NCBI GenBank assembly: GCA_006969745.1 | Contig: CP030886.1 | Span: forward strand, 806,001 to 870,000 | Direction of reading: 5' to 3' | Source of the DNA: Cytophagaceae bacterium | GTDB lineage: Bacteria; Bacteroidota; Bacteroidia; Cytophagales; Cyclobacteriaceae | DNA length: 64,000 nt | Shown: one piece after another, positions 10,319 through 24,393 of the stretch | Position numbering within the stretch: the stretch's first letter is position 1 | Layout of the letters: each line of letters begins with the position of its first letter | The notes under the pieces: generated by a model | Seen by the model: only the letters and a program-made list of their open reading frames with translations | What the model was told of the DNA's origin: nothing | The model's database searches: none | Program-made: the position numbers and the translations under genes

Positions 10319-13207
10319 ATGCTAAGAAAAAGCCTTATAATTCTATTTACGGCAACATCATTTTCTCTACTAGGACAATCCTGTCTTCAAAAACTAGATA
10401 GTGCAGAATACTTCAAGTATAGTAATCCACTGAAATCTAAATTCTATGCCAGTTCCCTCCTATCGGATTTAGACTCTGCAAAGTGTGTCACTGAAATTGG
10501 CATTGCGGGACTTTATAATAATGTGGGCTTAATACTTTGGGAAGTCAATGACAAACAGCGCAGTTTAAACGCATTGCACAGTGGACTTAGCTTTGAAGTG
10601 GCCAAGAAAGATTCGTTGCATCAAGACCTTCTGGGAATTTATTATAACCTTTCGGCTCTTTACCAGGAATTAGGAGAATTTGAAAAGGCGGGGAAATTTC
10701 TTGAGCTCGCAGGAAGAGTAACCTCTGCGAGGCTATCCAATGATACTAAAGCACAAATCAGGTATTTATATCGCGTAGGAATATATCATAGGGAAGTAGG
10801 AAACTTTGAAGAAAGTCTACAGGCGCTAAATCAAGGACTTGCAACCGGAAAAGACTTAAGTGACTCAATCAGCATTGCGCTACAAATTGAACTGGGCACC
10901 ACATATCGACATTTTGGCGATCTCAACAAAAGCGAAAGTGAACTTCTCAAAGCCATAGAAATGGCAAAAGGAAAAGACGAAATCCAGTATTTCCGAGCTA
11001 TTGATCGACTATCGGCTTTAAAAATTGAACAAGGAGAATATTCGGATTCTGAAAACTACCTGCTCTACAATCTTGAGAAAAAAAATGCAAACTACCAGGA
11101 GGATAAGATCATGCTCTTGGAGACACTCAATGGTTTGAGTATCCTCTACTATCGACTCAACGACCTAAAGACTGCCAACAACTACATGGATCAGGCTTTG
11201 AATGTAGCTGGTGAAATACGAACTATTCGACCTTATATGATCAACAATCTTGGCACGATCTACAAACGCCAAGGCGACATTGAAAAGGCTGAAGAATGTT
11301 TTCTTGAGAGCTCCAAGGGTTTTTTAGAACTTTTCGGATCCATGAATCCTGATTATGCCAGCAGTTTGAGTAATCTGGCTAGTATTTATAAAGACAAAGG
11401 TGAGCTTCCAAAAGCACTTGACTTATACATGAAGGTATTGGATATGGATAAAGTTATATATGGAACCGAGCATGCCAACTATGCCACCTCGCTTAACAAC
11501 GTAGCTCTTCTCTATCTTCAATTTGGTAACTTCTCTCTGGCTGGAAAGCTCCTGACTGAAGCCAAAAGAATACGCGCCAATACACTCGGCAACTATCATC
11601 CGCTTTATATCAAAACGGTAAATGATTTGGGTCTTTATTACATGATCATAAAAGACTATCAAAAGGCAATGGAGTCTTTCGATCATGCGCTTTCGGCGGA
11701 AATCAAACACATGCAAGATATATTTCCTGTGCTTACAGATAATCAGCGGAAACTTTACTTTGATGAGACCAGGTACAATATCGGCAGGTTTTGTGCACTT
11801 GCCTTTGCCGATGATAACATTGATTCTAAATACGCCAACAATGCACTAAATCACTTTTTGAATACGCGAGGTATCCTTTTTTATGCATCTGAGAAAATGA
11901 GAAAGTTGATTCAAAACAGCGATGATGACAAAATAAAAAGGGACTATAACACCTGGCGTGAGAAAAAATACAGCTTAGCACAAGCATACCTGCTTACCGA
12001 AGAAGATAGAATAAAGCAAGGAATATCTATCACACACCTGGAAGAAGAATGCGCCAATCTTGAGAAAGACCTTTCGCGTAAGTTTAAGGTCTTTGCTGAT
12101 CAGGAAAAATCTACCTATCACCATTGGTCTGAAATAAGTCATGAATTAGAGGATAGCACTGCTATGGTTGATATCATTCAGTATAGAGACTATTCGGTAG
12201 AGGTAGTAGATGAGAAGATCGATCAAGGGTTTGAAGATGAATCGCACTACATGGCCTTTATCATAAAGAAAGATAGTGTGTTGGAAACGGTGAAATTTCC
12301 TTCAATAGACCTAACCAAAGGTTTTGCTACCTATCGAAATTCTTTAAAGTATGGAGTGAAAGACAAGCGCAGTTACGGAGTATTCTGGCAACCTATCGAC
12401 GAGCATTTAAATGATGTAAACAAGCTTTATTTATCACCTGACGGGATTTATCATAAATTGAACCCGGTGGTCTTCTACGATGATCGAAGTGATAAATACA
12501 TGTCTGACAAGTACGATATTATCAATATCACAAGTGGCAAGGATTTGTTGTACAGAGACGCTTCTGAGCTAGTCACAGATGCCAAAATTTTCGGAAATCC
12601 TGACTTTTCCAGAATTGAAGGATTTACACTCAATCAGTTGCCCGGAGCTGAACAAGAGGCGAGTGATATAAGCGAAATACTGGACGTACGCAGATGGAAA
12701 ACAGAAACCTTTTATTTCTCTGAAGCTACCGAGGATCGAATCAAAAATTTTAACAATCCCGGCATCATACACATTGCTACGCATGGATATTTTATTGATG
12801 ATCCAAATTATACTGATCCATTGCATAGTTCAGGGCTATTCTTAAGCAAGTCTGAGTCCAGCACCAATGATGGCTTGCTTTCAGCATATGAGGCCATGAA
12901 TCTGATTTTAGATCAAACCAATCTTGTAGTATTGGCCGCTTGTGAAACCGGCTTAGGAAAGGTTCAAAATGGTGAAGGAGTGTTTGGACTTCAGCGGGCA
13001 TTTCTGGTAGCAGGAGCTCAAAATGTGCTCCTTTCACTTGTAAAGATAAATGACGAAGCGGCCCGTAAATTCATGAACCTTTTTTATAAAGAATTGCTCG
13101 TAGTGAAAGATCCGCAGAGGGCATTTTTTAATGCCAGAAGGGAGTTTAGAAAAGTAGATACAAACCCATATAATTGGGGAGCTTACATTTTGGTTTCTAA
13201 AGGATAG
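10319..13207 (+). CDS. exported TPR-CHAT protein (caspase-like cysteine protease fold)
   Basis: 962 residues. A signal peptide (about 1-20, hydrophobic with SLLGQ at the cleavage region) directs export. Tetratricopeptide repeats fill about residues 50-470 (for example YASSLSNLASIYKDKGELPKALDLY). A helical linker leads to a C-terminal CHAT domain (about 640-960). The catalytic pair is intact: His822 in IIHIATHGYF and Cys875 in LAACETGLG. CHAT domains belong to clan CD with caspases, gingipains and separase, so a peptidase role is likely, with the TPRs choosing the partner. It is convergent with the fibre-secretion operon, its stop ending at 13207 and the OmpA-like gene beginning at 13208. No CRISPR or gasdermin gene is nearby. 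A secreted processing enzyme is an inference. Confidence 0.88.
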   Translation: MLRKSLIILFTATSFSLLGQSCLQKLDSAEYFKYSNPLKSKFYASSLLSDLDSAKCVTEIGIAGLYNNVGLILWEVNDKQRSLNALHSGLSFEVAKKDSLHQDLLGIYYNLSALYQELGEFEKAGKFLELAGRVTSARLSNDTKAQIRYLYRVGIYHREVGNFEESLQALNQGLATGKDLSDSISIALQIELGTTYRHFGDLNKSESELLKAIEMAKGKDEIQYFRAIDRLSALKIEQGEYSDSENYLLYNLEKKNANYQEDKIMLLETLNGLSILYYRLNDLKTANNYMDQALNVAGEIRTIRPYMINNLGTIYKRQGDIEKAEECFLESSKGFLELFGSMNPDYASSLSNLASIYKDKGELPKALDLYMKVLDMDKVIYGTEHANYATSLNNVALLYLQFGNFSLAGKLLTEAKRIRANTLGNYHPLYIKTVNDLGLYYMIIKDYQKAMESFDHALSAEIKHMQDIFPVLTDNQRKLYFDETRYNIGRFCALAFADDNIDSKYANNALNHFLNTRGILFYASEKMRKLIQNSDDDKIKRDYNTWREKKYSLAQAYLLTEEDRIKQGISITHLEEECANLEKDLSRKFKVFADQEKSTYHHWSEISHELEDSTAMVDIIQYRDYSVEVVDEKIDQGFEDESHYMAFIIKKDSVLETVKFPSIDLTKGFATYRNSLKYGVKDKRSYGVFWQPIDEHLNDVNKLYLSPDGIYHKLNPVVFYDDRSDKYMSDKYDIINITSGKDLLYRDASELVTDAKIFGNPDFSRIEGFTLNQLPGAEQEASDISEILDVRRWKTETFYFSEATEDRIKNFNNPGIIHIATHGYFIDDPNYTDPLHSSGLFLSKSESSTNDGLLSAYEAMNLILDQTNLVVLAACETGLGKVQNGEGVFGLQRAFLVAGAQNVLLSLVKINDEAARKFMNLFYKELLVVKDPQRAFFNARREFRKVDTNPYNWGAYILVSKG

Positions 13208-15253
13208 TTATTGGCTGAATAGCTTCAAACTTTCCTCGCCTACCAGGAAATTGATTGGGCGTTCTACATTTGAATCTTCATATACACGAATGGTGTTGCC
13301 GGCAGCAAGAACTCCATTTTTTCCACCGTTCCATTCCATAAGTTGCTCATAGTCAACATTTAATATTTCTGCGATTTTTTGCATTGTTACCGATCGCCTG
13401 ATGATATATGTTTTGGCTGTCTGAAGATTTAGTTCTTCGCTTGTTTTCACAATAATCTCTACGCGCCTTCGGAATATTCTACGAAACCAGTGATCCTTAC
13501 CCTGCGAAGGAATCTCTCCGCGTGGGAGAACATTGATTTTCGCAGAATCAATACCAAGTGAGAAAAGGTATGCTTTGGTCGCTTCACCTCTATTTCTACT
13601 AAGTCTTAAATTGCCATTATCCGTACCAATACTATCGGTAAATGCTAAGATGTCTATGGATTGAAAATTGCGTCCTTGAATTTGTTCAAAGAGGTAATCC
13701 AGCCCTGCTTTTGCTTCAGGTCTTAGTGCGGAAAGCCCATAATCAAAGTATAACTTTTCGAAGCGAAACTCAACAGATTCTCCGAATGCCACAGTCACAT
13801 CGTCTTCCAAAATTTTAGGTTTAGGCTTTGATGGCCTTATCGGTTCAAACAGATCATAGCCGGCATAATCCTCTACTCGAAATGTCACCAAATCTAGCGA
13901 CTGAATGTCCCTAAACTTCGAAACTAATCGAGCGTCGATCAACGACTCACCCGAAATCAATAAGGAAAGAAATAACCGTTCATTGCTTACTGCAAAGTTG
14001 TAAATGTTTAGGATTTCATGATCCGCTCGATTAGAAGAAAGAAATCCTACTGTATCTGATATTGCAAAATAGGTATCGTCCCAGGTAGAATTAAACGGAT
14101 CTCCAAGATTATATATCTGAGGCTCAAAGAACGATTCTCCTTTTGCCGCATACAAGTCATATCCTCCATATCCTACGTGTCCGTCGCTTGCAAACAGCAA
14201 ACATTCAAAAGCTGATGAATAGTAGGGTGTGATCTCATTTTCTGGGGAGTTTATTACTGCTCCCATGTTGATTGCCGGTGTCCAGGCTTCTTGTTCGAGT
14301 CCTTTTAGGCTCATCCAAATATCACTACCTCCATTTCCTCCTGACCTGTTTGAGCTGAAGAATAGAGTGTCGCCGGTGGCCGAAATTGCTGGTTGCTTAT
14401 TCTCTGATCCTGGTTCGTTTATATATGCATTCAGGGCTACAGGAGCAGTCCATTTATCGTTTTCAAGATACGATACCATGATAGTACACTGAGATCCTTG
14501 ACCTTCTGTGCAGGAGGAAAAATAGAATTTAGTGCCGTCCTTAGTAAAGGATCCTGATCCTTCTGGCCATTTGGTGTTCAATTTTGAAAAATCCTGATTG
14601 GATGACGACATCCTCCATCTTCCATTTCCCCTGTTTTCAAATGAAACCAAATCCGGTAAAAGTCCCTCATATTGCAACTCTTCGTATTGTGTTCCGGGTA
14701 GATTTCTTGTGGTGGCCAGGACCACATGTTTGCTGGATGGATTGACAACTGCACCAAAATCGTGAAACTTAGAATTGATCTCATCCATTGAATTTATGGC
14801 AAATCCTCGATCTGCCTTTTTTTGCCTGAGTGCCAGCTGGCATCCTTCACTTTGCTTTCGAGCCAGCTCAATCAAATAAGGTTCTGCGTCTGGTACCGAT
14901 ATTAGAAATGAATAGATTGAATCGGCTTCATTGAACCGAGTTTCTTGTTTAAGTAAGCCTGCGTAACTGTACATGGAACGCGCTCTGTACTCGTGATTAG
15001 GTGTATTACTTAACCTCAAAAAGGCCTCTTTGGCCTTTTCATATTGCAATGTTTTATTGTAGCACTCGGCCAGTCTGAATCGTGCAAAATGATTGTCTTT
15101 ATCAATTCCGGATATTTTATCATAAAACTCTATTGCATCATTGTAAACACCATTTTGATAATTCTCATCGGCCAATTTCAAGAGTTTTGGAACCGATTGA
15201 GAATACCCGACTATAGTGGCGAATATGCAACCTATGGTGAGTATTTTTTTCAT
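13208..15253 (-). CDS. TPR-PD40-OmpA-LysM envelope protein
   Basis: 681 residues. A signal peptide (about 1-18) is followed by TPR-like helices (about 20-170) and PD40/WD40-like beta-propeller repeats (about 235-410, with the recurrent SSNR and GG.D.W/Y patterns). An OmpA C-terminal peptidoglycan-binding domain lies at about 490-600 (LYFDYGLSALRPEA; AFTDSIGTDNGNLRLSRNRG), and a terminal LysM-like domain at about 610-658 (TYIIRRSVTMQKIAEILNVD). The TPR-PD40-OmpA order resembles PorE and related type IX secretion components. Two different peptidoglycan-binding modules in one protein is less usual. It is the last gene of the fibre operon, 8 bases after porP/sprF. I infer that it anchors the outer-membrane complex to the cell wall. 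Confidence 0.88.
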   Translation of the reverse strand: MKKILTIGCIFATIVGYSQSVPKLLKLADENYQNGVYNDAIEFYDKISGIDKDNHFARFRLAECYNKTLQYEKAKEAFLRLSNTPNHEYRARSMYSYAGLLKQETRFNEADSIYSFLISVPDAEPYLIELARKQSEGCQLALRQKKADRGFAINSMDEINSKFHDFGAVVNPSSKHVVLATTRNLPGTQYEELQYEGLLPDLVSFENRGNGRWRMSSSNQDFSKLNTKWPEGSGSFTKDGTKFYFSSCTEGQGSQCTIMVSYLENDKWTAPVALNAYINEPGSENKQPAISATGDTLFFSSNRSGGNGGSDIWMSLKGLEQEAWTPAINMGAVINSPENEITPYYSSAFECLLFASDGHVGYGGYDLYAAKGESFFEPQIYNLGDPFNSTWDDTYFAISDTVGFLSSNRADHEILNIYNFAVSNERLFLSLLISGESLIDARLVSKFRDIQSLDLVTFRVEDYAGYDLFEPIRPSKPKPKILEDDVTVAFGESVEFRFEKLYFDYGLSALRPEAKAGLDYLFEQIQGRNFQSIDILAFTDSIGTDNGNLRLSRNRGEATKAYLFSLGIDSAKINVLPRGEIPSQGKDHWFRRIFRRRVEIIVKTSEELNLQTAKTYIIRRSVTMQKIAEILNVDYEQLMEWNGGKNGVLAAGNTIRVYEDSNVERPINFLVGEESLKLFSQ

Positions 15254-15261
15254 GCTATTAA

Positions 15262-16302
15262 TCAGAATATCGGACTTGAAACATTTCTCAATGGATTCGA
15301 AAGATCGAGATTGTAAGTTAAAGAAACCTCATAGGTAGGCAAGTTGGCGCCAAGCTGATCTGTGATATCGAACGATTGCGTATTTAGATCGAAGCTAAAG
15401 CCAATCTTCAGATTATCTATTTCAAATCCGGCTAGCACGATGATGGAATCTTCCAGACGATACCACGAACCAATCTGAAGATTTACGGCTGTATTGGAAG
15501 ATGGCGAACTTACCAGCGTGGAAAGATAAACGCCCGTGTTTATTTGACTACTGCCCTGGGAATACAGCACATAGGCTGAAGGATGTACGTACCATCGAGG
15601 AGCTATATTGAATTTTGAAGAACCGAATGCTTTAAACAGCAGACTTTTTCTTGCACCTTCCAGTCCTTCAATTGAAACGTTGGCTCGATTCAGATTATCA
15701 ACGCTTAGTCCAAATAGCAAGCTCTTATCGCGGATGTATCTATTCTCATTGTCAAAAGAAGAATAAATCACGCCAAAGTTGAACGTTGGGTAAAGAACCG
15801 GGTTAGCACCTAAAGCCTCGCCTACTTTCGTATCGTCATATCCAATGTATCTATTGAATTGCGAACCCCATGTCAATACATTTCCATCAATTGTATGCTG
15901 AACAAGTCCGCCTTGCAGCCCAAATACAATGGTCTTATTTGTAAGTCGGCTTAGCCGAATGGCGTATGCTCCGGTCAGAAGGATCTTTTTGGAAGTATAG
16001 ATGCCTTCAAATCCTCGCTTTTCCTGAAAAAATGTAATTCCCGCGCCTCCTATTTGATGGTCTTTACTTGTTGTCTTTTTAAAAGGATAGGTGAAAGTGA
16101 CCTGCAGCAGCTCAAGGAATGCATCTGAACTTGGCGATCCTCCTCTTTTGTAATTAGAATTGAATGAAAGATTTGGTATAGTTCCCGTAAATGCAGGATT
16201 GAGGACACTCGAACTTGCAAAGTACTGAGAAAATTGGCCTTCCTGTCCCAGCAAAGAGAACGAGCATGCTATCAATAATATGGTGATTAGCTGCTTCTTC
16301 AT
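15262..16302 (-). CDS. PorP/SprF family type IX secretion outer-membrane protein
   Basis: 346 residues with a signal peptide ending near SLLGQ. The mature start FSQYFASSSVLNPAFTGTIPNLSFNSN (about 24-50) is the diagnostic PorP/SprF opening (Q(Y/F)...NPA..G). The remainder alternates hydrophobic strands, as expected for an outer-membrane beta barrel. In known systems, SprF-like proteins are encoded next to, and are specifically needed for, secretion of a type B sorting-domain cargo. Here the gene directly follows such a cargo-type gene, overlapping it by 4 bases, and precedes the OmpA/LysM protein. A cargo-specific accessory role is therefore likely. Confidence 0.92.
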   Translation of the reverse strand: MKKQLITILLIACSFSLLGQEGQFSQYFASSSVLNPAFTGTIPNLSFNSNYKRGGSPSSDAFLELLQVTFTYPFKKTTSKDHQIGGAGITFFQEKRGFEGIYTSKKILLTGAYAIRLSRLTNKTIVFGLQGGLVQHTIDGNVLTWGSQFNRYIGYDDTKVGEALGANPVLYPTFNFGVIYSSFDNENRYIRDKSLLFGLSVDNLNRANVSIEGLEGARKSLLFKAFGSSKFNIAPRWYVHPSAYVLYSQGSSQINTGVYLSTLVSSPSSNTAVNLQIGSWYRLEDSIIVLAGFEIDNLKIGFSFDLNTQSFDITDQLGANLPTYEVSLTYNLDLSNPLRNVSSPIF

Positions 16303-17501
16303 TTGACAAGTAAAATTGAACCGACCTGCGTATATTCTTGAGAATCTGCAACTATTCTTACATTGTAATAATACACCCCTTCCGGGGCATCCTGACCAGA
16401 ATTAAGTACACCATTCCAACTAAACTGAGAAACATCTAAGTCGTCACCGCTCTGACTCACGGTAAAGACCTGCTTGTTGAAGGAATCATATAAAGCAATT
16501 GAAATCGATGTGACAAGCGTTCCGGTGAAGTAGGCCTTGAATTCCCTGTTTTCTTCTAAGGTAGCATTAGGCGCAAATGCTTTTGGGATATACAGGCGCG
16601 GCTCATCAACCAAAGGAACCAAGGCAATTGCCATCCTTCGTCCTTCATTTGTGATCCAAATTGATTCATTGGAAGTAATTGTCCCGCTTGGGTTAAATGG
16701 ATCAGCCGTATTCTGAGTGCCATCTAAAATATGATATAGTGTATCCTGCTTGGAAAATAATGCGATGGCAGGCGTGTAGGCATTGGCGCGAATTGATTCT
16801 CCATTTGAAAAATTATTGAGATCAACACCGGAAAAACTTACTGATATCTGAGCTGTAGTGGAATCTCCTTTGACTTTCAAAATCCACTCCACTTCATCAC
16901 TCAACCCGACCATGTCTTCATCCGGTAATAACTGTGCCTGATCAGGAATTCTGCACTCAACACTTACTATGCTACCTGTAGCTAAACTTGAGATAGTTAC
17001 ATAATTTGGAGATCCATTTACACCCATTGGGAATGTGACTGGTCCTCCTTGAGAGATGCCTACCAGCTTTCCTTCAACGTAGCCTGTTCCCAGTGCCTGT
17101 GAACTACCGCTGACCAATAAGTCTTCTTCATCTTCGGCATCTATAATTCCGCTGCGGGTTTCCAAGGCTCCGGAAACTATTACGCGATCTGTTAATAGCG
17201 TCAATTTACCTTGCTTATCAACCACAAAATCTCCAACCTCTAAGGTGTCGCCGCTAAGGTTTTGATCATTCGCACCAGTAAATTTAAGGTTGCCCACATC
17301 CCTATTGAGCACAAAGTCAAAATCACCGTAACTAACAATAGTCCCGGTATTCGTAAGGGACCCATTGAGACTCGTGTTTCCTCCAAAGAAAAAGACGGTT
17401 CCATCACCTACATATAGTGATGTTTGGTCTCCAAATGTGATGGATTGAGATAATGCCGTGTGGGCACAAATCATAACGATAACTCCAAATAATTTTTTCA
17501 T
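16299..17501 (-). CDS. secreted protein with type B (gliding motility-associated) sorting domain
   Basis: 400 residues. A signal peptide (MKKLFGVIVMICAHTALSQ) precedes a beta-rich region of unknown family (about 20-300). The C-terminal ~95 residues match the gliding motility-associated/CHU_C sorting domain: YIPKAFAPNATL in place of the usual FSPNGDG, a YDSFNKQVF strand, FSWNG, then APEGVYYYNVRI. This domain routes cargo through the type IX secretion system. The gene starts 4 bases after the giant fibre gene and is followed by porP/sprF. Because the fibre itself shows no sorting domain, this protein may act as its secretion partner or surface anchor, which is my inference. Confidence 0.85.
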   Translation of the reverse strand: MKKLFGVIVMICAHTALSQSITFGDQTSLYVGDGTVFFFGGNTSLNGSLTNTGTIVSYGDFDFVLNRDVGNLKFTGANDQNLSGDTLEVGDFVVDKQGKLTLLTDRVIVSGALETRSGIIDAEDEEDLLVSGSSQALGTGYVEGKLVGISQGGPVTFPMGVNGSPNYVTISSLATGSIVSVECRIPDQAQLLPDEDMVGLSDEVEWILKVKGDSTTAQISVSFSGVDLNNFSNGESIRANAYTPAIALFSKQDTLYHILDGTQNTADPFNPSGTITSNESIWITNEGRRMAIALVPLVDEPRLYIPKAFAPNATLEENREFKAYFTGTLVTSISIALYDSFNKQVFTVSQSGDDLDVSQFSWNGVLNSGQDAPEGVYYYNVRIVADSQEYTQVGSILLVK

Positions 17502-17505
17502 AAAA

Positions 17506-20500
17506 TTATGGTTGTGAGGTTCGTCCGATTTCTATCCAAAATGAACCTACATATACCAAGTGCAAGGTCGAATTCACATTCATCAAGAAATTGGTATCGT
17601 TGTTCTCTAGCTGAATATTTACTCCGCCATTGTCCGCATCAATAATATCAACACCAGCTGCTTGAGCAACAAGAATGATTTCTTGTCCGGGCAACCCTGT
17701 AGCTAGATCACTGATTGGCCCTCCATCTAATGTCACAATTCGTGTGTCGGTTGCCACCGGGTCAGCACTAAATGGACCTGAGATAGCACTAACTAAATTA
17801 CCTCCCAATGAAATATCGCTAGCTGTATTAACCGCACCATTTACATCGAGTGTAGCTGTTGGATTGGCAGTGCCAATTCCTACGTTTAAATTATTATTTG
17901 TGCCGTCTCCCAATGCTATTACATTGGCAGTATTAACGAAGGTATTGTTTCCAATGGCAACTGAATTAGTGGAACCACCGGTCACTGATGCACCAAAACC
18001 AACCGCTATTGAGCCCGCTGCACCGGCCGTCGTACCTGTTCCAATCGCTGTTCCATTACCGACAGCATTTGCATTCGTACCTAATGCAATCGCACTCCCT
18101 CCTGAAGCAGCAGCAATATTTCCAATTGCTATTGAACCAGTCGACCCGGCAGTGACAATAGCATCAAATCCTAGCGCTATTGCGTTTACTCCTAATGTTT
18201 CAGCTCCAAAGCCATTAGATGTACCTCCTCCAATTGCTATGCCTCCATCTAAATCAACATAACTAGTAGTTCCAATTGATATGGCATCCAATGTTCCTGC
18301 AGAAACATCAGAAGCAGAACCTACGACAACATTTCCCGAGCCAGTAGTAATTGTATTTCCTGCACCATCACCTATTATAACATTTTGACCACCTCCCGCT
18401 AAGGCAGTAGCACCATTACCTCCAATACTATTTTGGTTAACGTCAAATACAAAATCACCAGCTCCACCTGGAGCCCAGGTAAGGTTGCCTGCACCATCAT
18501 TTGTGAGTGAACCTGTTCCCTGATTTTGAGGTAAAATCACAGTATACGCACTACTTGTCGGATGAGCTTGCAATACAAAAGCATTAGCTCCCCCATCATC
18601 TTCAAGTTCTAATGTTCCTCCAAACCCTGGAGTAGGGTTATCTACACGAATAACACCATGTGTCTCGATGATGCCGTGATTGGCTGCACTCCCAGGAAGA
18701 CCTGAAGAGATTACTACATCACCTCCGTTGCCTCCTGTGGCATCTCCATCTCCGGCATTTAAGTATAAATTACCCCCTTGATCAGGTGATCCGCTTGCTG
18801 AACCACCGGCGCTGATTGCAAAGTTATTTCCGGGACCAGTTCCATTTGTGAAAATACTAATGGACCGATCTACACCATCGAAGAAACTTACATTCCCATC
18901 AACCTCTATAGCATCACCTCCATTACTTCTAAATCTAGCAGCTTGTCCAGCACCAGAGTTTTGAACTTCGAACAAAACTCCACCATCAGCCTGCGTTTGA
19001 GAAAAGGGTAAAGTCAAGCCTCCTCCGCCAAGAGAATTCCATGATCCTGCAGTATATCCCTCGAATGCTGATCCGTTGTACCGAATCATCCCATCCTCCT
19101 CATCTCCCGGATCTGGTGACCCTAATCGAATACCTTCTGAAACGTCGATATTTCCATCATTTCTCATACCCATCCAGCTACGAACATCTGTACCTGAATC
19201 AGATAAATCCAACTGAGAATCCGGCGCACCGTTAACCACATTCATGAACAATATTTCTCCATCGTCAAAGAATATAAATGAGGCAGAATCTGAATTTGTT
19301 CTTCTCAGCTGATTTACTGTCGGAACAGAATAATCAGGATAAAGATTTGACATGATTGCATCTCCTAATATGGTTTCCGTACTGTTTTCAAAATGTCCCA
19401 TACTAAGTTCGCCACCGATTTGTAATGGAGCTCTCACATCTTGAACTCCAATGCCAACAAAGTAATCTGAGTTGATGCCATCACCCAATATAATGGTATT
19501 TGGAATATTAGCGTCTGTGTTGGTACCAATTGCTATTGCATCATTTGCATTAGACACAGCATTTCTTCCTATTGCAATTCCATCGATATTATTCGTTTGG
19601 GCGTTAAATCCAATTGCTACACTACCATCCCCCGGAGCATTTGCATTGAATCCAATACCAACCACATTTTGAGAAGTAGAGCTTGTATTTGAGCCTGATC
19701 CTATTAGCGTATTTCTAGTCCCACTAATAAGTGTTAAACCGGAATTTCGTCCAACTGTCACGTTATCTGTTCCAGTTGTAATGCCACTACCTGAATTTTC
19801 TCCAATTAAAACGTTTCTGTCTCCTCCAGTCATCAAGCTACTTCCTGCTGCAAAACCAGCGATTAGGTTTTCTGTAAACGGGTTATCAATAAGTCCTGAA
19901 CCTCCACCGATAGGTCCCCAAGCTCCTTCAATGAAGCCTTCAAAACCCTCAGCTCCAGGCTCGTTGCTATACCTTAACATTCCATTTGCTGGGACTCCAG
20001 GACGTTGTGCATCGTTGCCAATTGGCAGCTGAATTGCGTCAGTTCCAACAATATCCAATATTACTCCCGGAGTAGTTGTTCCTATCCCAATTGGTGCATC
20101 CGTTGTAATAGCAGGTCCAACACCTGCATGAATCACATTAATAACAGCACTAGAATTACTACCATTATTATTCGAAAAAGTAGCGGTATGGCCTAACCCG
20201 CTTGTAAAAGCATTAAGGGCTTGTGCAGTTCCGGTTGCATTATCATAGGATATACGAGCTGCGTCTCCTGCTCCATTACTTTGTGCAAGAAGTGCATAAG
20301 AACCAGCGGCTCCATCTGAAAGTGCTTCTAATGCCGGCACAGTGCTACCAACATTTGTAACATTAAAGAAACCTGCTCTGAAATTTCCTGTTTGTGTGAT
20401 TGAGAATGCATCTGCTGTATTATCCAATCCTGAAAAAGGTAAGACTAAACCATTATCCACAGCTGGGTTCCAATTGGCTCCATCCCAGGCCAATACTTCT

Positions 20501-23500
20501 CCTGGATTAGGCGCTATTGCAGTGGTGTGAATGCTCATATCAAACGCGTCTCCGGCTATGGCGCCTGGATCATACGTGCCAGAAAGCATATCGCCTCCCG
20601 TGTTATCTACTGCAGGGTTCCAATTGGCTCCATCCCATGCCAATACTTCTCCTGGATTAGGCGCTATTGCAGTGGTATGAATACTCATGTCAAATACGTC
20701 TCCGGCTATGGCGCCTGGATCATACGTGCCGGAAAGCATGTCGCCTCCGGTGTTGTCTACTGCAGGGTTCCAATTGGCTCCATCCCATGCCAATACTTCT
20801 CCTGGATTAGGCGCTATTGCAGTGGTATGAATACTCATGTCAAACGCATCTCCGGCTATGGCACCTGGATCATATGTGCCAGAAAGCATGTCACCTCCGG
20901 TGTTATCTACTGCCGGATTCCAATTGGCTCCATCCCATGCCAATACTTCTCCTGGGTTTGGAGCGATCGCAGTGGTATGAATACTCATGTCAAATGCGTC
21001 TCCGGCTATGGCGCCTGGATCATACGTGCCTGAAAGCATGTCGCCTCCGGTGTTATCTACTGCCGGATTCCAATTGGCTCCATCCCATGCCAATACTTCT
21101 CCTGGGTTTGGAGCGATCGCAGTGGTATGAATGCTCATATCAAACGCGTCTCCGGCTATGGCGCCTGGATCATACGTGCCTGAAAGCATGTCACCTCCGG
21201 TGTTATCTACTGCAGGGTTCCAATTGGCTCCATCCCAGGCCAATACTTCTCCTGGATTAGGCGCTATTGCAGTGGTATGAATACTCATGTCAAACGCATC
21301 TCCGGCTATGGCACCTGGATCATATGTGCCAGAAAGCATGTCGCCATCGTCACTGCTATCTAAGTCTAAGGCTGGTGCCGAGTTCACGGCTGTGGTAGCG
21401 GCTGCTACGTTTGCTGCAGTCTGGCCACCTACCTGATCTACGGTGAAGCCGGCAGTATAACTACCTGATACATCGCCGGCAGCTGGATTGGCCCCTGTTA
21501 AAACATCATCACTTGTATCTAAATCTAAAGATGCTGCTCCATTAACTGTTGCAGTCGCTGCTGCTACGTTTGCTGCAGTTTGGCCGCCTACCTGATCTAC
21601 GGTGAAACCCGCAGTATAACTACCTGATACATCACCGGCAGCTGGAGCTGTTCCTGTAGCTACATCGTCACTGCTATCTAAGTCTAAGGCTGGTGCCGAG
21701 TTCACTGCGGTGGTAGCGGCTGCTACGTTTGCTGCAGTCTGGCCACCTACTTGATCTACGGTGAAGCCGGCAGTATAACTACCTGATACATCGCCCGCAG
21801 CTGGATTGGCCCCTGTTAAAACATCATCACTTGTATCTAAATCTAAAGATGCTGCTCCATTAACTGTTGCAGTCGCTGCTGCTACGTTTGCTGCAGTCTG
21901 ACCGCCTACTTGATCGACGGTGAAGCCTGCAGTATAACTACCTGATACATCACCGGCAGCTGGAGCCGTACCTGTAGCTACATCGTCACTGCTATCTAAG
22001 TCTAATGCTGGTGCCGAGTTCACGGCTGTGGTAGCTGCTGCTACGTTTGCTGCAGTCTGGCCACCTACTTGATCTACGGTGAAGCCAGCAGTATAACTAC
22101 CTGATACATCGCCCGCAGCTGGAGCTGTTCCTGTTGCCACATCGTCACTGCTATCTAAGTCTAAGGCTGGTGCCGAGTTCACTGCGGTGGTAGCGGCTGC
22201 TACGTTTGCTGCAGTCTGGCCACCTACTTGATCTACGGTGAAGCCGGCAGTATAACTACCTGATACATCGCCCGCAGCTGGATTGGCCCCTGTTAAAACA
22301 TCATCACTTGTATCTAAATCTAAAGATGCTGCTCCATTAACTGTTGCAGTCGCTGCTGCTACGTTTGCTGCAGTCTGGCCACCTACCTGATCTACGGTGA
22401 AGCCTGCAGTATAACTACCCGATACGTCGCCCGCAGCTGGAGCTGTTCCTGTTGCCACATCGTCACTGCTATCTAAGTCTAAGGCTGGTGCCGAATTCAC
22501 GGCTGTGGTAGCGGCTGCTACGTTTGCTGCAGTCTGGCCACCTACCTGATCTACGGTGAAGCCGGCAGTATAGCTTCCTGATACATCACCGGCAGCTGGA
22601 GCCGTACCTGTAGCTACATCGTCACTGCTATCTAAGTCTAATGCTGGTGCCGAGTTCACTGCGGTGGTAGCGGCTGCTACGTTTGCTGCAGTCTGGCCAC
22701 CTACTTGATCTACGGTGAAGCCGGCAGTATAACTACCTGATACATCGCCCGCAGCTGGAGCTGTTCCTGTTGCCACATCGTCACTGCTATCTAAGTCTAA
22801 GGCTGGTGCCGAGTTCACTGCGGTGGTAGCGGCTGCTACGTTTGCTGCAGTCTGGCCACCTACTTGGTCTACGGTGAAGCCAGCAGTATAACTACCCGAT
22901 ACGTCGCCCGCAGCTGGAGCTGTGCCTGTTGCAACATCATCACTACTATCTAAGTCTAAGGCTGGTGCCGAGTTCACGGCTGTGGTAGCGGCTGCCACGT
23001 TTGCTGCAGTCTGGCCACCTACTTGATCTACGGTGAAGCCTGCAGTATAACTCCCAGAGACATCACCGGCTGCTGGATTGGCGGCATTGGTAATATCATT
23101 TGTTTGATCCAAATCGAGATTTGCAGGTATTCCTGTTAATTCTGAGAAATCAATTCCATCTTTAATATTTGCAGGAACAGTTGGGTCACTTTCTGTTACA
23201 ACAAATCCCGCAGTAGTCAAGTCAATGGTATTGCCTCTTTCAACAGAAAGATTGGTTCCCGATAGACTTAAATTCTGATTATCTGTATTTAAGGCACTTA
23301 AATCAACTGTATTTCCATTTGCTATTGAAAGATTGGTTCCTGCTAAAGTCAGGTTCTGGTTGTCAGTGTTGGTTGTTACTACCCAATTTGGGTTTACCCA
23401 GAAATAAAATGCATTTAAATCACTATCAAATATCATCAAGCCATTGTCGCTTGCGGTTAGCGAACTTGCCATTCCGGTCCTTTGGGCGGTCGTTAGGCTA

Positions 23501-23661
23501 GGAATCAATAATCCCTGATTTCCATTGGGCGCCACAAGGTGTAAAACTGCATTAGGATTAGGAGTTTCGGTATTTATTCCGGCTGTAAACTCTTGAGCAG
23601 CAAGAGTGGCTGAGAGTAACAAAGTCGCCATTGCGACGAGAAGTCTCGGGGTAATTTTCAT
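17506..23661 (-). CDS. giant surface fibre/adhesin with two tandem-repeat arrays
   Basis: 2051 residues. Signal peptide about 1-22. The following segment (NPNAVLHLVAPNGNQGLLIP) is common at the start of Bacteroidota tail-fibre-like surface proteins. Residues 189-771 are 11 tandem 53-residue repeats (AAGDVSGSYTAGFTVDQVGG core). Residues 773-1070 are 6 near-identical 50-residue repeats (GDMLSGTYDPGAIAGDAFDM core). Both repeat types recall phage tail-fibre shaft motifs (VGGQTAANV; GDML..TYDP). About 1257-1403 and 1737-1924 hold YadA-head-like SxAIG repeats. GIGT.NPT..LDV segments recur. Repeats are acidic and Ala/Gly/Asn-rich with no Lys or Arg. No type IX sorting domain, S74 chaperone or autotransporter barrel is seen at the C-terminus. 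A trimeric beta fibre at the cell surface is the best inference. Confidence 0.85.
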   Translation of the reverse strand: MKITPRLLVAMATLLLSATLAAQEFTAGINTETPNPNAVLHLVAPNGNQGLLIPSLTTAQRTGMASSLTASDNGLMIFDSDLNAFYFWVNPNWVVTTNTDNQNLTLAGTNLSIANGNTVDLSALNTDNQNLSLSGTNLSVERGNTIDLTTAGFVVTESDPTVPANIKDGIDFSELTGIPANLDLDQTNDITNAANPAAGDVSGSYTAGFTVDQVGGQTAANVAAATTAVNSAPALDLDSSDDVATGTAPAAGDVSGSYTAGFTVDQVGGQTAANVAAATTAVNSAPALDLDSSDDVATGTAPAAGDVSGSYTAGFTVDQVGGQTAANVAAATTAVNSAPALDLDSSDDVATGTAPAAGDVSGSYTAGFTVDQVGGQTAANVAAATTAVNSAPALDLDSSDDVATGTAPAAGDVSGSYTAGFTVDQVGGQTAANVAAATATVNGAASLDLDTSDDVLTGANPAAGDVSGSYTAGFTVDQVGGQTAANVAAATTAVNSAPALDLDSSDDVATGTAPAAGDVSGSYTAGFTVDQVGGQTAANVAAATTAVNSAPALDLDSSDDVATGTAPAAGDVSGSYTAGFTVDQVGGQTAANVAAATATVNGAASLDLDTSDDVLTGANPAAGDVSGSYTAGFTVDQVGGQTAANVAAATTAVNSAPALDLDSSDDVATGTAPAAGDVSGSYTAGFTVDQVGGQTAANVAAATATVNGAASLDLDTSDDVLTGANPAAGDVSGSYTAGFTVDQVGGQTAANVAAATTAVNSAPALDLDSSDDGDMLSGTYDPGAIAGDAFDMSIHTTAIAPNPGEVLAWDGANWNPAVDNTGGDMLSGTYDPGAIAGDAFDMSIHTTAIAPNPGEVLAWDGANWNPAVDNTGGDMLSGTYDPGAIAGDAFDMSIHTTAIAPNPGEVLAWDGANWNPAVDNTGGDMLSGTYDPGAIAGDAFDMSIHTTAIAPNPGEVLAWDGANWNPAVDNTGGDMLSGTYDPGAIAGDVFDMSIHTTAIAPNPGEVLAWDGANWNPAVDNTGGDMLSGTYDPGAIAGDAFDMSIHTTAIAPNPGEVLAWDGANWNPAVDNGLVLPFSGLDNTADAFSITQTGNFRAGFFNVTNVGSTVPALEALSDGAAGSYALLAQSNGAGDAARISYDNATGTAQALNAFTSGLGHTATFSNNNGSNSSAVINVIHAGVGPAITTDAPIGIGTTTPGVILDIVGTDAIQLPIGNDAQRPGVPANGMLRYSNEPGAEGFEGFIEGAWGPIGGGSGLIDNPFTENLIAGFAAGSSLMTGGDRNVLIGENSGSGITTGTDNVTVGRNSGLTLISGTRNTLIGSGSNTSSTSQNVVGIGFNANAPGDGSVAIGFNAQTNNIDGIAIGRNAVSNANDAIAIGTNTDANIPNTIILGDGINSDYFVGIGVQDVRAPLQIGGELSMGHFENSTETILGDAIMSNLYPDYSVPTVNQLRRTNSDSASFIFFDDGEILFMNVVNGAPDSQLDLSDSGTDVRSWMGMRNDGNIDVSEGIRLGSPDPGDEEDGMIRYNGSAFEGYTAGSWNSLGGGGLTLPFSQTQADGGVLFEVQNSGAGQAARFRSNGGDAIEVDGNVSFFDGVDRSISIFTNGTGPGNNFAISAGGSASGSPDQGGNLYLNAGDGDATGGNGGDVVISSGLPGSAANHGIIETHGVIRVDNPTPGFGGTLELEDDGGANAFVLQAHPTSSAYTVILPQNQGTGSLTNDGAGNLTWAPGGAGDFVFDVNQNSIGGNGATALAGGGQNVIIGDGAGNTITTGSGNVVVGSASDVSAGTLDAISIGTTSYVDLDGGIAIGGGTSNGFGAETLGVNAIALGFDAIVTAGSTGSIAIGNIAAASGGSAIALGTNANAVGNGTAIGTGTTAGAAGSIAVGFGASVTGGSTNSVAIGNNTFVNTANVIALGDGTNNNLNVGIGTANPTATLDVNGAVNTASDISLGGNLVSAISGPFSADPVATDTRIVTLDGGPISDLATGLPGQEIILVAQAAGVDIIDADNGGVNIQLENNDTNFLMNVNSTLHLVYVGSFWIEIGRTSQP
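20452..21345 (-). repeat. tandem array, 6 copies of a 150-bp unit
   Basis: Six in-frame copies within the fibre gene encode a 50-residue unit with core GDMLSGTYDPGAIAGDAFDM. Five are identical at protein level; the fifth from the N-terminus has GDVFDM instead of GDAFDM. DNA differences between copies are nearly all synonymous and are shared in mosaic combinations, such as GGATTAGGCGCTATTGC versus GGTTTGGAGCGATCGC on the plus strand. The last copy lacks its final two codons. Confidence 0.97.
21349..23097 (-). repeat. tandem array, 11 copies of a 159-bp unit
   Basis: Eleven consecutive in-frame copies of a 53-residue unit in the fibre gene. The central block (AAGDVSGSYTAGFTVDQVGG and the following QTAANVAAAT) is invariant in every copy. 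Variation is confined to the unit edges. Copies ending ATVNGAASLDLDTSD are always followed by a copy beginning DVLTGANP; this junction occurs three times. Ordered from the N-terminus, the blocks are 5, 3, 2 and 1 copies long. The first copy starts DITNAANP. Confidence 0.97.
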
Positions 23662-23898: not shown

Positions 23899-24393
23899 AT
23901 GAATATCATTAAATTATCCGCCTACTTTATTCTCTCTATTTTACTTTTTTCGTGTGGAGGAGATTCAGACGATGCTGTTCCTGCTGGAAATAGTCTAACT
24001 GCAACAGTCACTGGTGACATTACTGCTAATTTTAATGCGTCTGGAGAAGTTCAGGGTCAAAAACTAGTACAGGCCAATCTCACGAGTTCGAGTAATGGAA
24101 ATGTGCTAGCCATTGTAGCGTCTGAAGGGACAGGTAACTCAATGGCAATCTCTATTGTTAGCTTTGATGGTGCCGGAACTTACAGCCTTGAAATCGCCTC
24201 AAGCAATACAGCAACATTCACTTCGGTAAATACATCCACCTTCGAAACAACAGGCATTACGGCTATTTCAGGAAGTATCGAGGTGACAGTTTCAGGAGAT
24301 GTTATAAATGGCACCTTTAGTTTTGACGGAGAAGGAAGTGATGACATTCAAGCTGAAGTAACTGGGCAATTTTCTGTCACCCCAGAAGAATAA
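23899..24393 (+). CDS. small surface or periplasmic lipoprotein, unknown function
   Basis: 164 residues. The N-terminus (AYFILSILLFSCGGDSDD) is a lipoprotein signal with lipobox LFSC, so Cys20 should be lipidated. The acidic residues after the GG could favour surface export, as reported for other Bacteroidota lipoproteins. The mature part is rich in Ser, Thr, Gly and acidic residues and is probably an all-beta domain; no known family is recognised. It lies 237 bases upstream of, and divergent from, the fibre operon, so it may belong to the same surface programme, but that is only positional. A hairpin terminator follows at 24432. Confidence 0.8.
   Translation: MNIIKLSAYFILSILLFSCGGDSDDAVPAGNSLTATVTGDITANFNASGEVQGQKLVQANLTSSSNGNVLAIVASEGTGNSMAISIVSFDGAGTYSLEIASSNTATFTSVNTSTFETTGITAISGSIEVTVSGDVINGTFSFDGEGSDDIQAEVTGQFSVTPEE

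Follow-up and report, generated by a model that had tools for sequence, protein, structure and literature searches.

The 64-kb window, the whole stretch of DNA analyzed here, carries at 13208–23661 four near-touching or overlapping minus-strand genes that probably encode a surface-fibre module in which the sorting signal for the type IX secretion system (T9SS) is supplied in trans: a very long fibre lacks a C-terminal sorting domain (CTD), one of type B is found on the small product of the adjacent gene, the partner, and this partner would dock on the conserved N-terminal domain of the fibre, FIBN. The open reading frames (ORFs) lie exactly as in the original prediction, with junctions of +4 bp (fibre/partner), −4 bp (partner/SprF, overlap 16299–16302) and +8 bp (SprF/OmpA-LysM). 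Coordinates are positions within the window; the source genome is labelled G000 and other loci carry L-numbers.

17506–23661, minus strand: fibre gene, 2051 amino acids (aa); signal peptide MKITPRLLVAMATLLLSATLAAQ by inspection; no CTD, no cysteine
23368–23592, minus strand: FIBN, fibre N-terminal domain (residues ~24–98), from the alignment of fibre N-termini; proposed docking module for the partner
16299–17501, minus strand: partner gene, 400 aa; signal peptide, beta-helix, beta-sandwich and type B CTD; proposed trans-acting sorting adaptor
16302–16589, minus strand: type B sorting domain of the partner (CTD, about residues 305–400)
15262–16302, minus strand: SprF gene, 346 aa; PorP/SprF-type outer-membrane carrier; C-tail without cysteine
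13208–15253, minus strand: OmpA-LysM gene, 681 aa; PorE-like TPR-PD40-OmpA-LysM protein; predicted peptidoglycan anchor

The partner bears the sorting domain and the fibre does not

The type B sorting domain predicted on the second product was borne out by a CHU_C match (5.4e-6; the whole-protein Pfam scan scored it at 26.9 bits, just under the cut-off of 27, and the six-frame scan at 30.1 bits, which exceeds it) and by structural alignment to T9SS CTDs. TIGR04131 of NCBIfam did not match the window partner and matched several relatives' partners. The partner aligns over its full length with twenty homologues, and its structural model (pLDDT 75) comprises a beta-helix (residues 20–150), a beta-sandwich (155–297) and an Ig-like CTD. 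Model residues 320–400 align with the CTDs of PorU, PorZ, the translocon-bound NucA substrate (8glk) and mirolase with Z values of 6.6–7.7, a range in which generic Ig-like folds turn up too; the single Foldseek match of the model under E 0.001 was PorU. The beta-helix and the middle domain, both barely probed by structure comparison, gave no confident structural match, and sequence comparison matched neither the partner nor FIBN nor SprF to a solved structure. A 3083-aa surface protein encoded just upstream of the window (L110:5492–14743; G000:C1:786500–806000) contains a stretch resembling the beta-helix/sandwich domain of the partner, which is therefore common to large adhesins.

In the fibre, neither Pfam nor NCBIfam detected a sorting domain, and comparison of its C-terminus with the partner family profile (hhalign) gave a probability of 0.1%, in agreement with the earlier claim that the largest product lacks such a domain. 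Pfam scans also found no Peptidase_S74 in the window fibre and no YadA anchor barrel in it or in the fibres of relatives. Its architecture is as follows.

21345–23077, minus strand: shaft, 159-bp (53-aa) tandem repeat, ~11 copies, GDVSGSYTAGF type
20453–21345, minus strand: shaft, 150-bp (50-aa) tandem repeat, 6 copies
17893–18303, minus strand: YadA-head-like stretch (residues 1787–1923), matching the solved chain 1p9h (E 0.0011)
17509–17769, minus strand: C-terminal tip of ~85 aa that resembles a beta-sandwich; akin to the tip of L039, which bears Phage_depo_C

The description as a repeat fibre stands insofar as the repeats are present, with the trunk being partly YadA-like (YadA_head, PF05658, 50.9 bits over three stretches in Pfam). 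An assembly artefact was rejected as their source, because orthologues are similarly organised with different lengths. The tip resembles that of L039 (hhalign probability 84%, E 8e-6); the fold model of the fibre C-terminus is poor (pLDDT 60). As to the label 'phage-like', the window fibre itself has a single weak PHROG match, whereas phage-type domains are clear in its relatives. Peptidase_S74 is present in about a dozen of them and ends the linked fibres of, for example, L021, L028, L033, L035, L036, L037, L076, L077, L080 and L085; the linked fibre of L039 ends in a Phage_depo_C-type sandwich, further ones end otherwise, and some contain collagen repeats. The fibres are modular like those of phages, with ~75 conserved N-terminal residues and variable tips. 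A pattern-based scan, which detects close relatives only, found no relative of the fibre N-terminus in viral contigs. Prophage origin was rejected, given neighbourhoods without phage genes, paralogues in the same genome and conserved chromosomal synteny.

These fibre ends bear on the idea that the fibre is an independent T9SS substrate with a C-terminal signal of its own that has not been described. Window-type fibres do share the conserved ~85-aa C-terminal sandwich, and CTDs are C-terminal beta-sandwiches as well; however, the ends of linked fibres are of several unrelated kinds (S74 with coiled coil, depolymerase-like sandwich, others), and the fibre matches neither the CTD families nor the partner CTD profile, making this explanation very unlikely.

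Linkage of fibre and partner is conserved

Close relatives of the locus were found in Ekhidna lutea DSM 19307 and Imperialibacter, which places the source, a marine bacterium, near Ekhidna in the Cytophagales. A collection scan with the genus-level partner alignment gave seven named loci; in an alignment of more diverse partners no stretch was sufficiently conserved for such a scan. Neighbourhoods around full-length partner homologues were collected from 59 relatives and 395 genomes of the phylum, and a single rule was applied to score 40 partner loci. The contig of one of these holds nothing upstream of the partner gene, leaving 39 loci to be judged. A CTD-less fibre or adhesin gene lies immediately upstream of the partner on the same strand in 37 of these 39 loci (in 13 of the 37, the upstream gene is truncated where the contig or stretch ends). 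In the remaining two (L036, L038), the fibre gene comes after the OmpA gene. No upstream gene in the 40-locus set matched the CTD model built from the partners. Two upstream fibres show an apparent frameshift (L076, L096); in the Imperialibacter locus (L096:4225–8948) the fibre is split into two overlapping ORFs of 807 and 780 aa, owing either to a sequencing error or to phase variation.

The four genes are thus linked in relatives of several families across Bacteroidota, but what had been described as a four-gene unit is invariant only in its fibre-partner pair. SprF is the next gene downstream of the partner in 33 of 40 loci, and the OmpA gene is sometimes on the opposite strand. The fibre is retained, and its linkage to the partner persists across the loss of SprF/OmpA, in the seven loci without an adjoining SprF (L072, L073, L079, L085, L089 and two in L090), which indicates that the pair is the core of the module.

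FIBN accompanies the partner

The source genome contains eleven type B CTD stretches in a six-frame scan. Eight end ORFs of 541–7094 aa, and the other three end short ORFs of 410, 409 and 382 aa, the partners of three fibre modules located in the window, at 1.775–1.795 Mb and at 2.64 Mb. The module at 1.775–1.795 Mb has a fibre of ~6,450 aa with a Peptidase_S74 tip (L098, L147; G000:C1:1775406–1794770), composed mostly of DGQVQTADIADLNVTTGKLAADAVDNTKL-type repeats with S74 at the end. Strong FIBN, with the pattern (V/A)GIxTxxPNPNAVLxLVxPxxNQGLLIPxLTTxQRT...FYFW, occurs three times in this genome, each time in a module beside a partner; with ~3,700 genes, a number estimated from genome size, the chance of such coincidence is of the order of 1e-8. 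Between the three modules, identity is 40–49% for FIBN, 18–25% for the partners and 8–15% for the tips. Three of the four S74-tipped proteins of the genome have no strong FIBN and lie >25 kb from any type B CTD gene, implying that FIBN, not the tip, goes with the partner. In eight genomes we found 17 FIBN matches under 1e-28: 14 are at a module, two are at contig ends whose sequence resumes on other contigs that carry fragments of a module (L102/L029, L103/L028), and the last, also at a contig end, cannot be judged. At L135:790–2697 the neighbour of a FIBN fibre is a beta-helix protein that resembles the partner but has a type A CTD, its gene coming first.

Partial correlations of pairwise identities were calculated over the 18 modules having all parts. 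The value for CTD and SprF, given the partner body, was 0.64 and serves as a positive control, as contact between the two has already been shown by experiment (PMC9143113, PMC12618676). FIBN and partner body, given SprF, gave 0.37 (5–95% range of subsamples, 0.08 to 0.57), compared with 0.20 for FIBN and SprF and −0.02 for FIBN and CTD, both given the partner. This is the pattern expected from a chain of FIBN, partner body, CTD and SprF, although it is suggestive only, given the mutual dependence of the distances and the modest value for FIBN and partner, which weaken the case for docking.

If the partner were an ordinary type B adhesin and the fibre functionally unrelated, either periplasmic or released, the linkage would reflect co-regulation or co-inheritance of surface genes. 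Operons of type B protein, SprF and PorE are indeed common, with five in F. johnsoniae (PMC12618676), and the beta-helix domain of the partner is also found in large adhesins. Set against this are the persistence of the fibre-partner linkage across families, in all three modules of the source genome, after reordering (L036, L038) and without SprF/OmpA, so that we consider such an explanation unlikely.

Carrier and predicted peptidoglycan anchor

The PorP/SprF assignment of the third product was upheld by PorP_SprF at 7.9e-34 (PF11751, 117.9 against 22.3 bits) and by TIGR03519 at 158 bits, over its cut-off of 90.55. The mobile gliding carrier SprF requires C-tail cysteines, which tie it to the gliding track through a Cys-X-Cys motif (PMC12635249). 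This motif is absent from the C-tail of the window SprF, and C-tail cysteines are absent in all 14 module SprFs examined. In L080:7355–8521, L081:10051–11205 and L088:7182–8342, a 384–388-aa protein with a basic C-terminus replaces SprF after the fibre-partner pair and might be an alternative carrier or anchor. The fourth product deserves its TPR-PD40-OmpA-LysM label, with PD40, OmpA and LysM all over the Pfam cut-offs. The NCBIfam PorE model gives it 202 bits against a cut-off of 600, the likeness being limited to the TPR/PD40 region and the OmpA domain; a PorE-like gene is present in most modules. SprA is encoded in the source genome (2452 bits), together with nine PorP/SprF proteins.

A proposed route for the fibre to the cell surface

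In the S74 endosialidases, the C-terminal chaperone is cleaved off. More generally, a phage-type fibre requires a free C-terminus for trimerisation, chaperone cleavage and the receptor-binding tip, and the signal must therefore come from a partner at the N-terminal end, if the present fibres are of that type. T9SS substrates bind SprA and the carrier via the CTD, implying that they exit the translocon CTD-first (PMC10994853), and type B substrates remain on their dedicated PorP/SprF carrier (PMC9143113, PMC12618676); a filament with a CTD in cis is consequently held by its C-terminus.

The genes and their domains, the lack of a recognised CTD on the fibre, the conserved linkage and the SprA gene are observed; trimerisation, FIBN-partner binding, the export route, polarity and static behaviour are what we infer. 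The fibre would enter the periplasm via Sec and trimerise by C-terminal elements of phage or trimeric-autotransporter type; relatives that bear S74 would next lose the C-terminal chaperone by cleavage, as endosialidases do. The 400-aa partner would bind FIBN and be recognised, through its type B CTD, by SprA (the T9SS translocon) and the cognate SprF carrier. The fibre may exit together with the partner, or the partner may capture it at the surface; the data fit carriage through SprA and capture outside alike. The fibre would then stay on SprF, which the PorE-like protein would tie to peptidoglycan, with its N-terminus at the membrane and the variable C-terminal tip pointing outward, the reverse of SprB-type adhesins, which are held by the C-terminus. 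The lack of C-tail cysteines in module SprFs, together with the PorE-like gene in most modules, leads us to conclude that static trimeric fibres with outward tips are what the module most likely displays.

The partner might instead act as an anchor only: it would be exported by itself and hold or cap the fibre at the surface, and the fibre would cross the outer membrane along a different path or with an unrecognised signal. Anchoring accounts for the linkage and the conservation of FIBN equally well, and PG1035, a type B protein bound to PorP, has been suggested to serve as a cap (PMC9143113). Yet the gene cluster showed no outer-membrane exporter of another kind: Pfam scans detected no YadA anchor on the fibres, and the neighbouring genes encode T9SS parts, which leaves anchoring alone a minority explanation that we regard as rather unlikely.

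Several observations weigh against a sorting signal supplied in trans through FIBN. Bacteroidota commonly have weaker homologues of FIBN (1e-15 to 1e-25), with 64 of 395 genomes containing matches under 1e-15, and the ~3.3-kb stretches around them mostly show no partner; since they are so widespread and, within these short stretches, mostly unpartnered, FIBN has other uses. At L078 and L082, both from Flavobacteriia, the partner is preceded by a CTD-less gene for something other than a fibre, with DUF11 or CUB, TSP_3 and Ig domains, and FIBN docking does not account for this cargo. Operon linkage can mean a common function without contact, and the window CTD scores close to the family cut-off. 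Interaction, export and localisation are themselves inferred, and the passage of a trimeric fibre through SprA is an unproven assumption. The original proposal that a separate adaptor carries or anchors the fibre is accordingly supported in its genetic part, the fibre C-terminus having no detectable sorting domain and the genes being linked in relatives, while physical carrying or anchoring keeps its conditional standing.

Neighbouring genes and further observations

The adhesins of L078 (690–4022) and L082 (10466–14461), CTD-less and multidomain, end in a common tail, ITNPxIYQRVKxN, perhaps a docking peptide. Two genes flank the module in the window.

10319–13207, plus strand: TPR-CHAT protein, 962 aa, apparent signal peptide; convergent neighbour abutting the OmpA gene
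23899–24393, plus strand: gene for a small lipoprotein-like product of 164 aa, oriented divergently to the fibre gene; matches the Riean_0653 family of NCBIfam weakly

The TPR-CHAT (caspase-like) gene is found beside the OmpA gene at the window and at orthologous and paralogous loci (L021, L028–L034, L091, L096), in two orientations; none was seen beside modules of more distant families. The lipoprotein-like gene is not kept beside the fibre in L022 or L023.

Implications and comparison with known systems

To our knowledge, T9SS cargo described so far bears its own C-terminal signal. No description of a CTD-less fibre with an obligate small CTD partner was found in the literature on fibre, YadA or phage-tail together with T9SS or SprF, subscription papers and bioRxiv lying outside the scope of the search. 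The parts are of known kinds, and the combination is to be placed under T9SS type B surface anchoring; a demonstration of carriage in trans would make it a new class of secretion. More tentatively, and somewhat short of an even chance, the modules may represent a Bacteroidota-wide T9SS cargo class in which a dedicated adaptor gives the signal in trans and folded trimeric phage-type fibres are exported and then displayed N-terminus-in and tip-out, as heteromeric substrates with a polarity opposite to that of all described substrates. If true, such a signal in trans would make the T9SS capable of moving protein complexes, and would explain the surface delivery of proteins needing a free C-terminus for a trimerisation chaperone or a receptor-binding tip. 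There would then be a large class of overlooked T9SS-dependent surface proteins, as CTD searches miss the fibres, and the portable partner-CTD pair could become a display tool.

The module resembles SprB-SprF of F. johnsoniae in that a type B CTD protein is encoded beside its cognate PorP/SprF and in having a very long repetitive surface filament. Unlike SprB, which carries its CTD in cis, the filament here is without a CTD, which is found on a separate 400-aa protein; the SprF without C-tail cysteines and the PorE-like gene also differ from SprB-SprF and point to a static fibre. PorE-type neighbours accompany static type B substrates (PMC9143113, PMC12618676), Fjoh_3952 being a static substrate with a PorE-like gene (PMC12618676). 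A similar layout is that of PG1035-PorP-PorE of P. gingivalis and Fjoh_3952-3951-3950, which combine a type B CTD protein, a PorP-like carrier, a PorE-like peptidoglycan binder and static anchoring, whereas no CTD-less fibre is described as part of those systems. With trimeric autotransporter adhesins (YadA, type Vc) the fibre shares YadA-head repeats and the match to the solved head chain 1p9h; in contrast to them it has a soluble C-terminal tip and no YadA anchor barrel, T9SS-type parts standing in the barrel's place. Like phage tail fibres and spikes, the fibres have a conserved N-terminal dock, a repetitive shaft and an exchangeable tip, with S74, collagen and Phage_depo_C in relatives; unlike phage fibres, the module is chromosomal, has a signal peptide and is linked to T9SS anchor genes, and the window fibre is without S74.

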